Assembly (NCBI GenBank): GCA_024511395.1
Contig: JANELJ010000111.1
Span: 1-7,213, forward strand
Length of the DNA: 7,213 bases
Direction of reading: 5' to 3'
Source: Gammaproteobacteria bacterium
GTDB lineage: Bacteria > Pseudomonadota > Gammaproteobacteria > GRL18
Part shown: positions 2,683 to 7,213 of the stretch, piece by piece
Layout of the letters: the number at the start of each line of letters is the position of its first letter
Numbering within the stretch: the first letter of the stretch is position 1
Position numbers and translations under genes: made by a program
Notes under the pieces: generated by a model
Database searches by the model: none
What the model was told of the DNA's origin: nothing
The model's input: the letters and a program-made list of their open reading frames with translations, nothing else

Positions 2683-4698
2683 TTGCCCGCATTAAACCCC
2701 CGTCAACAACAGGCCGTAAAACACATTGACAGTCCCCTGCTGGTGCTGGCCGGTGCCGGCAGTGGTAAAACCCGGGTGATCACCAATAAAATTGCCTATT
2801 TAATTCAGGAATGCGGACATAAAGCCCATACTATTGCCTCTGTAACCTTTACCAACAAGGCTGCAATAGAAATGAAAGAACGGGTCGCACAAATTATTCC
2901 CCGTTCCCAGACCCGAGGTCTGAGGATTTCTACCTTTCATACCCTAGGACTCAATATTATCAAGTCTGAGCTGGGTGTACCAGGCTTAAAAAGTGGTTTT
3001 TCCATCTTTGATACCCACGACAGCCATGCTCTTCTCAAAGATTTGATGCGCAGTCATTTTAAAGATGAAGAATTGATCAAGGAGCATTTTGAAGGTATTG
3101 CACGGCAGATATCCAGCTGGAAAAATGACTGCCTGACACCGGATTTTCTGCTACAGCAGCCCGCGGAGGATCCGGCCTGGAGCTACAATGTTAAAATTTA
3201 CCAGGATTATAATCATCACTTACGCACCTATAATGCCGTGGACTTTGATGATTTAATTATGCTGCCGGTAATCTTATTTAAAAACCATCCTGCTATTCTG
3301 GAAAAATGGCAGAAACGCATACGTTATCTGCTGGTGGATGAGTACCAGGATACCAATACTACCCAGTATGAACTGGTTAAACTGCTGGTCGGTGACCGTT
3401 CCTCCCTGACCGTCGTGGGTGATGATGATCAGTCCATTTACTGCTGGCGTGGTGCCAAACCGGAAAATCTGGCATTGCTGGAAAAAGACTTCCCCACGCT
3501 TAAGGTCATTAAACTGGAACAGAACTACCGTTCGACCCGCTTAATCCTCAATGCCGCTAATACCTTAATTGCCAATAATCCCCATGTCTTTGAAAAAGCG
3601 CTCTGGAGTGAACTCGGCCACGGCACTACTATCCGTATTATGCGGGTACCTGATGAGCACAAGGAGGCTGAGCGAGTGGTTTCTGCACTGGTGGCGCATC
3701 ATTTTCGTTTTAAAAAATCCTATCGTGATTATGCCATTTTATACCGTGGTAACCACCAGTCCCGGCTGTTTGAAAAACAGCTCAGAGAACAGCAGGTCCC
3801 CTATTACTTAAGCGGCGGCGTATCCTTTTTCTCCTATACGGAAATCCGGGACATGCTGGCCTATCTGCGCTTACTGGTCAATCCCGAGGATGACAATGCC
3901 TTTTTACGCATTATTAACACCCCACGCCGCCAGATCGGCAGTGCCACCATTGAAAAACTCAGCAACTATAGCAGCCAGGCCGGAACCAGTCTGCTCACGG
4001 CCTGTTCTCATCTAGCGATAACAGAACATCTGCCTGAAAAAGCAGTACAGCGCCTGACAGAATTCGGGCAATGGATGACCCGTATGCAACAGTCGGCCTG
4101 TGAGGACAACCCCATTAAAGTCGTGGAGCAGTTAATTATTGATATTGATTACAACACCTGTCTGTTTGAAACCAGCAATAATGAAAAACAGGCGGAAAAA
4201 CGCATCGAAAATGTCAATGAGCTGATTGCCTGGCTGCAGCGTCTATATGACAATGAGCCGGAAAGCTCTCTGGAAGATCTGGTATCTAAAATGCTCCTGC
4301 TCGACATTATGGATCGCCAGGAAGAAGAAAGCGAAGACGATCAGGTGACTCTGATGACCATGCATGCCTCCAAGGGTCTGGAATTTCCCTATGTATATAT
4401 TGTCGGCATGGAAGAAGGCCTGTTGCCCCACCGCACCAGTATTGAAGAAGACAATATTGAAGAAGAGCGCCGGCTCTGCTATGTCGGCATTACCCGCGCT
4501 CAGAAAGAACTGACCTTCAGCCTGAGTGAGAAACGCCGTCAGTATGGTGAAATCATTGATACCGAACCCAGCCGTTTTCTGGATGAATTACCTCAGGAAG
4601 ATCTGGAGTGGCTGGAAGGTAAGCAAAGGCTTGAGGGGGAAGAAAGGAAAGAGTTTGGAAGAGCCAGTATTGCGGGGATTCGGGATATTTTGGGGTAA
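2683..4698 (+). CDS. rep: ATP-dependent DNA helicase Rep (UvrD/Rep family, SF1A)
   Basis: Rep is a 3'-5' DNA translocase and helicase that clears proteins from DNA ahead of the replisome and helps restart forks. The 671 aa are collinear with E. coli Rep (673 aa). Visible motifs are the Q motif LNPRQQQAV, Walker A GAGSGKT (24-30), Ia VTFTNKAA (54-61), Walker B LLVDEYQD (216-223), III VVGDDDQSIYCWRGA (244-258), IV LEQNYRS (278-284), V MHASKGLEF (560-568) and VI EERRLCYVGITRAQKEL (594-610). Motif III has C254 where I recall Ser in E. coli Rep. The start is TTG: no ATG or GTG lies in frame between the preceding stop (2638-2640) and this codon, and MPALNP fits the family N-terminus. A weak GAG lies 8 nt upstream. 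The gene is divergent from trxA. The heptamer array begins two bases after its TAA stop. Confidence 0.96.
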   Translation: MPALNPRQQQAVKHIDSPLLVLAGAGSGKTRVITNKIAYLIQECGHKAHTIASVTFTNKAAIEMKERVAQIIPRSQTRGLRISTFHTLGLNIIKSELGVPGLKSGFSIFDTHDSHALLKDLMRSHFKDEELIKEHFEGIARQISSWKNDCLTPDFLLQQPAEDPAWSYNVKIYQDYNHHLRTYNAVDFDDLIMLPVILFKNHPAILEKWQKRIRYLLVDEYQDTNTTQYELVKLLVGDRSSLTVVGDDDQSIYCWRGAKPENLALLEKDFPTLKVIKLEQNYRSTRLILNAANTLIANNPHVFEKALWSELGHGTTIRIMRVPDEHKEAERVVSALVAHHFRFKKSYRDYAILYRGNHQSRLFEKQLREQQVPYYLSGGVSFFSYTEIRDMLAYLRLLVNPEDDNAFLRIINTPRRQIGSATIEKLSNYSSQAGTSLLTACSHLAITEHLPEKAVQRLTEFGQWMTRMQQSACEDNPIKVVEQLIIDIDYNTCLFETSNNEKQAEKRIENVNELIAWLQRLYDNEPESSLEDLVSKMLLLDIMDRQEEESEDDQVTLMTMHASKGLEFPYVYIVGMEEGLLPHRTSIEEDNIEEERRLCYVGITRAQKELTFSLSEKRRQYGEIIDTEPSRFLDELPQEDLEWLEGKQRLEGEERKEFGRASIAGIRDILG

Positions 4699-4700
4699 GA

Positions 4701-4784
4701 GCGTTCAGCGTTCAGCGTTCAGCGTTCAGCGTTCAGCGTTCAGCGTTCAGCGTTCAGCGTTCAGCGTTCAGCGTTCAGCGTTCA
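4701..4784 (+). repeat. Tandem array of 12 perfect GCGTTCA heptamers
   Basis: Twelve identical 7-bp units start two bases after the rep stop codon and end in GAAAGAGC, 10 bp before the A-tract of the terminator. The unit is not divisible by three, so every plus-strand frame cycles through the same 7-residue peptide (SVQRSAF) without a stop, while every minus-strand frame meets TGA. The perfection of the copies suggests recent expansion by slippage. A decayed relative lies after rho (250-279). Confidence 0.97.
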
Positions 4785-4794
4785 GAAAGAGCAT

Positions 4795-4833
4795 AAAAAA
4801 GCCGCTTTCTTTTACAAGATAAGCGGCTTTTTT
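4795..4833. terminator. Bidirectional intrinsic terminator between rep and the porin gene
   Basis: GCCGCTT (4801-4807) pairs with AAGCGGC (4821-4827), extended outward by A6 (4795-4800) and T6 (4828-4833). An inner TCTT/AAGA stem closes a 4-nt loop with one bulged T. With A and T runs on both sides it can serve both convergent genes: rep from the left and the porin gene (stop at 4861) from the right. Confidence 0.9.
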
Positions 4834-4860: not shown

Positions 4861-6324
4861 TTAGAAACCTTTGGATAAGGTTAAGATAAAGCGATCATCA
4901 CAATTACCCTGGCTAGAGCTATAGCCATACGAATCACACTCGCTATCGCTTAGATCGTTACCAACATAAGACAGGTCAACATTTACACCAGCGAAATCAC
5001 GATTAACCCCTAGTTTATAGTCAGTATATTCAAAATCTTTGACTCCATCACCATTTTTCTTGTCATAAGCATCACCAAAAGACTTACCTACACTGGCACT
5101 GAAAGCCAGTCCCATGGGTAATTCATCATAGTCAAAACCTAAAGAAACATAATCGGAAGAATCATCGGTATCGAACCAATCACTGGAATAGGAATAAGAT
5201 GCAGAGAAGTAACTATAACTTAAACCAAAAGTCCATTCTGTTGTTTCATATCTGGGACTATTATTGTAGTTATAGCGTAATACACTGACATCATAACCAA
5301 TACCAGTATCACCAATTTCATTCGCAAAACCAAGATAGGTATCAACTTCAAGATTAACATCCCCATTAACATCATCAGCAAATGCCACATTTGAAGCCCA
5401 GACACCTACGTAAACACCACTATCATGGGAATAATCAAAACCACCTTGAACAGCGCCATCATTCTGAGTCTGTGAAATACCACGGAAATAATAGTCAGTA
5501 ACTAAAGCAACATTAGCATTGATTGTTAAAGATGAACTGTCTGAAGACTTACTGGTATCTTCTATGGCTTTAGATACTGATAGTATGAAGCGATCATCAC
5601 AATTGCCATGATTAGCATTATAGCCATAAGAATTACATTCGCTATCGCTCAGGTCATTACCCACATAACTTAAATCGAAAGTAACACCAGCATAATCTTT
5701 GCTGACACCGACCTTATAATCTATATATTCAAAATCTTTAACACCATCACCATTTTTCTTATCATAGGCATCACCAAAAGACTTACCTACACTGGCACTG
5801 AAAGCCAGTCCCATGGGCAATTCATCATAATCAAAACCTAAAGAAACGTAATCTGAAGAATCATCAGTATCAAACCAGTCACTGGAATAGGAATAAGATG
5901 CAGAGAAGTAACTATAGCTTAAACCAATAGTCCATTCTGTTGTTTCATATCTGGGACTATTATTATAGTTGTAGCGTAATACACTGACATCATAACCAAT
6001 ACCAGTATCACCAATTTCATTCGCAAAACCAAGATAGGTATCCATTTCAAGGCTGACAGCACCATTATCATCATCTGCAAATGCGACATTAGAACCCCAG
6101 ACACCTGCATAAATACCACTCTCATGGCTCCAGTCAAAACCGCCTTGGATAGCTCCGTCATTATCTGTTTGTGAAATGCCGCGGAAATAGTAATCGGTTA
6201 CTAGAGCGACATTGGCTGAAACCGTACCAAAACCTTCAGCACTGACCATTAATGGAGTCGCCACAACGGAAGCGACCGCCAGCGACAATAAAGACTTTCT
6301 AATTGAAATCATAATTTTTTGCAT
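4861..6324 (-). CDS. TorF/Gcw_chp-family putative outer-membrane porin with two tandem family domains
   Basis: The protein has a signal peptide (about 1-29, cut after VSA) and then two copies of the domain known as TorF putative porin (TIGR02001, Gcw_chp), a family I recall at about 220-260 aa; this one has 487. Copy 1 spans about 37-254 and copy 2 about 270-487. Both open with ANVALVTDYYFRGISQT and carry alternating aromatic and polar beta-strand-like sequence and a Cys pair (230/242 and 463/475). Only copy 2 ends in the C-terminal Phe typical of outer-membrane barrels (SKGF); copy 1 ends SKAI and joins copy 2 through a Ser/Asp-rich linker. The substrate is unknown. ACGGG abuts the first ATG, so Met5 (6310-6312) is an equally good start and gives 483 aa. 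Transcription probably starts from the sigma-54 promoter at 6405-6420. Confidence 0.88.
   Translation of the reverse strand: MQKIMISIRKSLLSLAVASVVATPLMVSAEGFGTVSANVALVTDYYFRGISQTDNDGAIQGGFDWSHESGIYAGVWGSNVAFADDDNGAVSLEMDTYLGFANEIGDTGIGYDVSVLRYNYNNSPRYETTEWTIGLSYSYFSASYSYSSDWFDTDDSSDYVSLGFDYDELPMGLAFSASVGKSFGDAYDKKNGDGVKDFEYIDYKVGVSKDYAGVTFDLSYVGNDLSDSECNSYGYNANHGNCDDRFILSVSKAIEDTSKSSDSSSLTINANVALVTDYYFRGISQTQNDGAVQGGFDYSHDSGVYVGVWASNVAFADDVNGDVNLEVDTYLGFANEIGDTGIGYDVSVLRYNYNNSPRYETTEWTFGLSYSYFSASYSYSSDWFDTDDSSDYVSLGFDYDELPMGLAFSASVGKSFGDAYDKKNGDGVKDFEYTDYKLGVNRDFAGVNVDLSYVGNDLSDSECDSYGYSSSQGNCDDRFILTLSKGF
4864..5517 (-). repeat. Copy 2 of the 699-bp-period internal duplication in the porin gene
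   Basis: Encodes residues 270-487. It aligns without gaps to 5563-6216 at an offset of exactly 699 bp (233 codons). About 190 of 218 residues are identical. The central 318 bp (5026-5343) differ from the other copy at 15 positions by my count, 14 of them silent. Confidence 0.93.
5563..6216 (-). repeat. Copy 1 of the 699-bp-period internal duplication in the porin gene
   Basis: Encodes residues 37-254. Its core (5725-6042, residues 95-200) differs from copy 2 by one amino acid (I133 against F366). The flanks carry 11 changes in the 58 residues before the core and 16 in the 54 after it. Confidence 0.93.
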
Positions 6325-6631: not shown

Positions 6632-6970
6632 TTACTGGGCAGTCATATATTCAATAGCCGCCTTGACTTCTTCATCGCTTAACGCCGCATTACCACCACG
6701 GGCTGGCATGGCGCCTTTACCGGCAATGGCAGCCTTAACCAGACCATCAACACCACCGGCTGCTTCCAGACGAGCATTCCAAGCATCTTTATCACCAATT
6801 TTTGGTGAATTTAATAAACCGGCTCCATGACAGGCCTGACAGGTTGCAGCCACTACAGCGCTGCCATCAACAGGACCGGCAGCCGCTTTTGGTTCTTCTT
6901 TAGCTGCTTCTACGCCACTCGCAGGTGCTCCTACTACAGAAACGGTAATCCCCCCGAAAAATAATTTTTT
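6632..6970 (-). pseudogene. c5-like class I c-type cytochrome, 5' end lost or frameshifted
   Basis: The frame encodes a small haem c protein that would carry electrons in the periplasm. It shows the haem-binding motif CQACH, then NSPKIGDKDAW, an Ala/Gly-rich helix, the probable axial Met in KGAMPARGG, and a final helix ending EYMTAQ, as in cytochrome c5-like proteins. Upstream of CQACH is an Ala/Pro/Lys-rich linker (VSVVGAPASGVEAAKEEPK). The frame is open back to a TGA at 6971-6973 but has no ATG or TTG; its only GTG (6851-6853) lies two codons before the haem motif and cannot give an exported protein. An ATG (6972-6974) in another frame encodes MKK and would join after loss of one base in the A7 (6965-6971) or G6 (6950-6955) run. 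Alternatively, the IS3 remnant next door replaced the original N-terminus. Confidence 0.75.
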
Positions 6971-7002
6971 TCATAAGTAGAATTTCCCATTAAATTATTA
7001 AT

Positions 7003-7008
7003 GAGGAG
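7003..7008 (+). promoter_or_regulatory. Strong ribosome-binding site of the orfA remnant
   Basis: GAGGAG lies 8 nt before the ATG at 7017. It confirms the start of the transposase fragment. Confidence 0.7.
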
Positions 7009-7016
7009 AACCTACA

Positions 7017-7103
7017 ATGAAGAAGTCCAGATTTACAGAATCCCAGATCATCGGCATTCTGAAAGAAGCTGAATCCGACATGCCGGTCACTGAATTAACC
7101 TGA
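7017..7103 (+). pseudogene. Truncated IS3-family transposase OrfA
   Basis: Translation begins MKKSRFTESQIIGILKEAE and continues SDMPVTELT before TGA at 7101-7103. This is the first helix and start of the helix-turn-helix DNA-binding domain of IS3-family OrfA, which is normally about 90-110 aa and continues ELC(R/K)xHG. Here the family sequence stops after Glu-Leu, and no frame downstream resumes it, so the gene is truncated rather than interrupted by a single stop. It diverges from the damaged cytochrome gene. Confidence 0.75.
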
Positions 7104-7213
7104 ATTCTGGATAAGAACTAAAAAATATTGAACTAAATGCCTGTTTCTCGATCAGATCATTTAATGACCAAATCAAATGAATTTGAACAAGGAACAGGCA
7201 AGTGACTACTATA
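7104..7213. other. Unassigned DNA after the IS remnant
   Basis: No recognisable gene. The stretch has 7-bp inverted arms GCCTGTT (7139-7145) and AACAGGC (7193-7199) and an inner CAAAT-GA-ATTTG (7174-7185). A possible GTG start at 7202, with AAGGA 8 nt upstream, begins Met-Thr-Thr-Ile before the window ends; this is too short to call. Confidence 0.3.

Follow-up and report, generated by a model that had tools for sequence, protein, structure and literature searches.

A TorF-family gene with two copies of the family domain, predicted to encode two linked 12-stranded β-barrels and carrying signs of exchange between its halves

Most of the outer-membrane proteins that have been studied contain one barrel per chain. 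Where barrels are combined, the abstract of Solan et al. (2021) is said to report that combinations with eight-stranded barrels prevail and that the fusions are lineage-specific. The TorF family (TIGR02001, PF09694) usually has one domain per chain, and its Pfam entry, PF09694, describes it as a family of unknown function. PMC5955497 gives Shewanella torF as an outer membrane porin of the TMAO reductase system. Outer-membrane chains with several barrels are treated as a class in the passages of PMC11494523 and PMC8592465 that cite Solan et al. 2021, and in those passages GfcD is a predicted double barrel of 12 and 13 strands with a middle domain. Literature searches on the TorF family names and on multi-barrel proteins found no paper on a doubled TorF protein. 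An initial annotation of the DNA described here knew of no description of such a form; the multi-barrel class to which the form would belong is in print.

The window, that is, the whole stretch of DNA analysed (7,213 nucleotides), is one entire 7.2-kb contig of a gammaproteobacterial draft genome of 2.26 Mb in 407 contigs. It carries a gene for a chain of 487 residues, in which the motif NVALVTDYYFRG is found at residues 38 and 271, giving head-to-tail copies with a period of 233 codons (Table 1). The whole chain scores 246.9 bits against PF09694 (cut-off 24) and 328.1 bits against TIGR02001 (cut-off 47.15), with two stretches matched in each case, and the halves scored singly against TIGR02001 reach 176.9 and 165.5 bits. 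Both the chain and each of its halves are therefore TorF members by the curated cut-offs, whereas the usual form of one domain per chain does not apply to a protein with two full domains. Over 219 aligned codons the two halves share 86% of their residues and 83% of their nucleotides, and a search of the organism's own genome with the 487-residue protein gave no second match.

Table 1. Features of the window discussed in the text, with positions counted from its first nucleotide.
Feature	Position	Strand	Basis
Double TorF-family gene, 487 residues (stop codon included)	4861..6324	minus	ORF, two family domains, full-length relatives
Signal-peptide-like stretch, residues 1-30, the only one in the chain	6235..6324	minus	Sequence reading; low pLDDT over residues 1-30
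First domain, residues 33-254, 12 predicted strands	5563..6228	minus	
Linker of 13 residues, 255-267 (EDTSKSSDSSSLT)	5524..5562	minus	
Second domain (residues 268-487) with 12 predicted strands and the terminal Phe	4864..5523	minus	
Homogenised tract, first copy, residues 93-199	5728..6048	minus	Orthologue-based scan, p = 0.002; third-position profile
Homogenised tract, second copy, residues 326-432	5029..5349	minus	Same scan, shifted by 233 codons
rep helicase, convergent neighbour of the double gene	2683..4698	plus	TIGR01074, 987.9 bits (cut-off 951.45)
Inverted repeat AAAAAAGCCGCTT...AAGCGGCTTTTTT where rep and the double gene converge	4795..4833		Sequence reading

Three homologue searches of a set of 5.8 billion proteins gave 317 distinct proteins among the matches listed (the best 120 per search). 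If a double is defined as a chain with two domains, each covering more than 60% of the profile model built here, these listed matches comprise 130 doubles and 187 singles, and no triple. The form is therefore not unique: the many two-domain members that the initial annotation had named as a ground for refutation are present in the databases. The doubling itself is real. Grouped by best similarity, the 130 listed doubles divide into 39 nearest to the window protein, 86 nearest to P0050 of the Methylococcales and 5 nearest to P0060. In a class-wide sample the TorF family is present in 192 of 369 genomes, and two domains in one frame were found, among the matches listed, only in the window's family (genomes G000, G008, G009 and G010).

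In a tree of 63 domains, made of 34 half-domain rows from 17 doubles and 29 single rows, the three groups of doubles each form one clade (support 100/99 to 100/100) and single-domain relatives lie between them. Nine rows, namely three halves of doubles (L038, L058, L061) and six long-branch singles, were removed before the AU test, which rejected a single origin of the doubles (p = 0.0044 for 17 doubles and 29 single rows). Several deep forks in the tree before that removal have SH-aLRT values of only 51-79, so that three is the least number of origins that fits, short of proof. The doubled TorF protein is thus likely to have arisen at least three times. What may have preceded fusion can plausibly be seen in another genome, G025, in which two adjacent family members are separate tandem genes with their own starts and stops, next to glnK and a frame resembling Amt. 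The locus L079 (8753-10584), from a genome outside the window's family, shows such a tandem pair with a P-II gene and an Amt-like frame as neighbours. The P-II gene was identified by its motif, and the other frame is one that we take to be amt.

The position of the C-terminal Phe distinguishes the two copies. In the window protein the first half ends in SKAI, with Ile followed by the linker, and the second half in SKGF. The terminal Phe is confined to the second copy in all 39 doubles of the window's group, as had been claimed for the window gene together with the exact 233-codon period of the family domain; the residue at the internal end is Ile in 34 of them, Leu in 4 and Met in 1, and the linkers are 11-13 residues long. 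The comparison of internal ends also included 13 doubles of the Methylococcales group, one of which (P0054) is a mis-hit. Among the matches listed, five doubles (P0285, P0286, P0287, P0062 and P0217) end in Leu and the remaining 125 of 130 in Phe.

The AlphaFold2 model of the 487-residue chain has 12 + 12 strands, with a pLDDT of 87 and a pTM of 0.85. Each half superimposes at 2.3-3.1 Å on KdgM, VhGalP and NanC, which are complete 12-stranded barrels but have only one barrel per chain. The halves of the model of P0050 likewise fit complete 12-stranded barrels, although many rows of that comparison have ranges spanning most of the chain, a range here being the first and last residue only. On the strand count and the half-by-half fit, two linked 12-stranded barrels are predicted, which would place the chain with multi-barrel proteins, defined by at least two complete barrels in one chain. 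By predicted fold the halves also resemble the KdgM/NanC porins; in sequence, no KdgM or NanC Pfam family matched at E up to 1, and no relative of known structure was found in the PDB at the same limit.

The degree of similarity between the two halves varies along the domain. When the gene is divided into 20-codon bins, third positions of the two halves agree at 35-70% in the first three, rise to 75-95% in the following five and fall to 40-55% in the final three; the range between each half and its L002 orthologue is 33-80%. A scan of third codon positions for a segment in which the halves resemble each other better than their orthologues found domain codons 61-167 (p = 0.002). This tract spans model strands 4 to 9 and three loops, which are outer loops if the N-terminus is periplasmic, the orientation assumed here. 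The orthologue scan gave p < 0.05 (uncorrected) in 7 of 16 pairs, with the segment of L009 lying at the start of the domain, and a run-length test gave p < 0.05 (uncorrected) in 3 of 6 genes. In a domain tree of the window's group, which included only 18 singles (the first ones with the motif), N and C copies interleave, and the N label needs 19 changes against a minimum of one. The middle cassettes are alike in both halves of the window protein and of P0012, a double labelled as coming from the sulfur-oxidizing endosymbiont of Gigantopelta aegis, and unlike in L008, L009 and P0021. The unlike cassettes of these last three are of types that are matched within other genes, and loop types seem to move as blocks.

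Because residues 93-199 of the N half are closer to the C half than orthologues predict, gene conversion across the strands of the outer loops is indicated. Segmental conversion between the halves is likely the simplest account of the matched middles, a process read from the sequence pattern. That the two halves of one gene evolve partly in concert is new in this analysis. The same middles could be explained in two linked barrels by slow evolution or shared selection at the protein level, without any conversion. In the window's group the best match of a half-domain is the same-position copy of another gene in 58 of 78 cases and its own partner in only 19 of 78, which fits such an account, as does the run-length test for the window gene alone (p = 0.06). 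The own partner is the best match in 5 of 172 cases in the Methylococcales group and in 6 of 10 in the third group, and the counts of 19 of 78 and 5 of 172 would argue against a strong form of gene conversion. However, the likeness lies in third codon positions and exceeds the likeness to orthologues in the same stretch, and the cassettes are sharply unlike between species yet matched within the genes of the window and P0012. An explanation without conversion is therefore judged unlikely, and conversion limited to segments is preferred.

The remaining alternatives concern the fold and the reality of the double. Both domains might close into one 24-stranded barrel with a wide pore, similar to an usher. 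The predicted strands do number 24 in total, and the best Foldseek rows by E-value for the whole chain are the 24-stranded ushers PapC and FimD (E about 3e-7), aligned over its entire length. The superposition is poor, however, with TM scores of 0.29-0.34 at 14-20 Å, and the fits of single halves to complete barrels, seen for P0050 as well, leave the predicted chain outside the usher class with its one closed 24-stranded barrel; this fold was rejected on the models and is very improbable. That one half is not a barrel but an exported passenger is suggested by the terminal Phe being present on the second half only. This reading is less probable still, and was also rejected on the models, because both halves have 12 confident strands that fit complete barrels, and both keep the conserved family residues and the Cys pair in 39 of 39 doubles. 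Thus, of the three options considered at the outset, the models favour two linked barrels and favour neither one larger barrel nor a barrel with a passenger.

An artefact of assembly, which had also been considered at the outset, might be suspected in a draft genome with a contig as short as the window, but its likelihood is next to nil. The gene is present at full length in 16 of 24 genomes of the family: the organism's own, those of all five congeners searched and 10 of the 16 from genus g4; two further g4 genomes have it in pieces (G013) or as a fragment (G022). A member of another genus of the family (G006) has only a single-like match, and five of the 24 have no match, three of these being less than 80% complete. 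In one of the 15 other genomes (out of 23) with a full-length double, G015, the gene sits on a 4.2-Mb contig. Furthermore, the copies in the window share no exact match longer than 71 bp, and the protein cluster of the window double represents 19 contigs. An artefact was rejected on these grounds, and the two-domain gene is taken as genuine.

In addition to the homogenised tract, the copies have sites that keep them apart. An alignment of the 39 doubles has 14 columns that tell N copies from C copies with a mutual information of at least 0.2; 200 random flips of the labels gave at most 4. Ten of these columns (window residues 33-36, 65, 73, 211, 212, 214 and 216) are found where strands 1-3 and 10-11 are predicted to end on the periplasmic side, next to the seam at which the linker joins. 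The remaining four (42, 160, 195 and 196) are away from the periplasmic ends and the seam. The copy-specific sites likely mark a putative contact side of the two barrels. Trp-216 is shared by 28 of the 39 N copies, against 1 of the 39 C copies and 2 of the 46 single-domain rows. The N copy of the window itself has Ala-212 and Phe-216 in place of the Tyr-212 and Trp-216 common in the clade, which is a point against the explanation favoured here. The Cys pair, one per half, falls within the segment of the last outer loop and can be seen by eye in some single-domain relatives.

The doubled gene is directly convergent with rep in 8 of the 9 loci examined; in the ninth, G009, two other ORFs separate them. 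In seven of the eight rep-adjacent loci trxA and rho come next, and the remaining one, L031, stops inside rep. Since the doubled gene is found beside rep in two genera of the family, it was likely inherited from their common ancestor.

The genes around single-domain members hint at a role in nitrogen uptake, because, of 35 distinct loci, 22 have a P-II (glnK) frame in the roughly 1.5 kb of flanking sequence fetched. These 35 are what is left of 44 loci after subtraction of 5 doubles and 4 repeats, and they are best-match loci, not a random draw. The link may not carry over to the doubles, since no P-II frame was found in any of the 27 doubled loci fetched (repeats included) or in seven longer ones (L072-L078). 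Acidic residues outnumber basic ones by 76 to 23 in the mature window protein. A chain so strongly acidic with a KdgM/NanC-like predicted fold would be expected to pass small cationic or neutral, perhaps nitrogenous, solutes; this is our best guess and the weakest step of the proposal.

We consider it probable that the protein comprises two linked 12-stranded barrels acting as paired solute pores, with an inherited doubling and gene conversion between the halves. As it has just one signal-like stretch, the chain would presumably be exported whole, once, by Sec and then folded by BAM, its sole terminal Phe being that of the second predicted barrel. The predicted barrels, tied by a short linker, would likely be a permanently paired set of small-solute pores, and the likely gain from fusion would be a fixed pair that is folded and inserted together. 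After inheritance from the common ancestor of the two genera, gene conversion would keep the strands of the middle outer loops alike within a species. The residues near the seam and at the periplasmic rim stay different between N and C copies throughout the clade. More tentatively, the fused pore pair, invented at least three times, might be an obligate two-pore machine whose outer loops are matched by conversion as its rims and seams specialize. If this is true, the halves of such a machine are homogenised with each other at the surface but stay distinct at the base.

Compared with single-domain TorF proteins, to which each half is equivalent as a full family member above cut-off, the doubled protein differs in having two domains per chain, and the single-domain form (187 of the 317 listed) often has an adjacent P-II gene. 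With the multi-barrel class (GfcD/YjbH), as far as the passages cited above describe it, the doubled TorF protein shares more than one predicted barrel per chain. GfcD, however, has two unlike barrels and a middle periplasmic domain in those passages, whereas the window's group has two copies of one barrel and a joint of 11-13 residues, and sequence exchange between the copies is a likely feature of doubled TorF. Concerted evolution of paralogous genes in prokaryotes is in print (PMC6053082) and has the same hallmark, i.e. copies in one genome that are closer than orthologues predict. In the present case it would affect only a portion of each of two domains that belong to a single gene. Doubled TorF is thus likely a recurrent form of the known multi-barrel class, a homologous 12 + 12 pair with internal concerted evolution. 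More than 100 natural doubled sequences, with single-domain sisters as controls, make a clean system for studying how BAM folds two barrels of one chain when, as in the window's group, the terminal Phe is only on the last, and what advantage a cell has from two joined pores. The contrast between outer strands that are homogenised and rims that are copy-specific also predicts the sites of barrel contact and of selection from outside.

Several features of the window lie outside the doubled gene. A promoter scan gave 6 sites, compared with 6.2 expected in shuffled sequence, and no PHROG match that would link the window to phages was found at E up to 0.1. The inverted repeat between rep and the doubled gene is likely a terminator shared by both, as read from the sequence; it is absent from the list of the pattern scan because its loop exceeds the length allowed by the scan. 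Between the rep stop codon and this repeat, at 4700-4785, the 7-mer AGCGTTC is repeated in tandem 12.3 times without a mismatch. Text resembling TGAACGCTGAACGCT occurs, by eye, once more near 258-280 of the window. At 6632-7213 is a cytochrome c gene (PF13442, 55.4 bits) that lacks the N-terminal membrane anchor present in L077 and L031. At the position of the anchor a transposase-like frame (PF01527, 20.8 bits, below the cut-off of 24.1) begins instead, and either the gene was cut by an insertion or the end of the contig is misjoined. At the other end of the window, downstream of rho, an inverted repeat at 41-150 has arms of 29 bases that are 86% complementary and separated by 52 bases.
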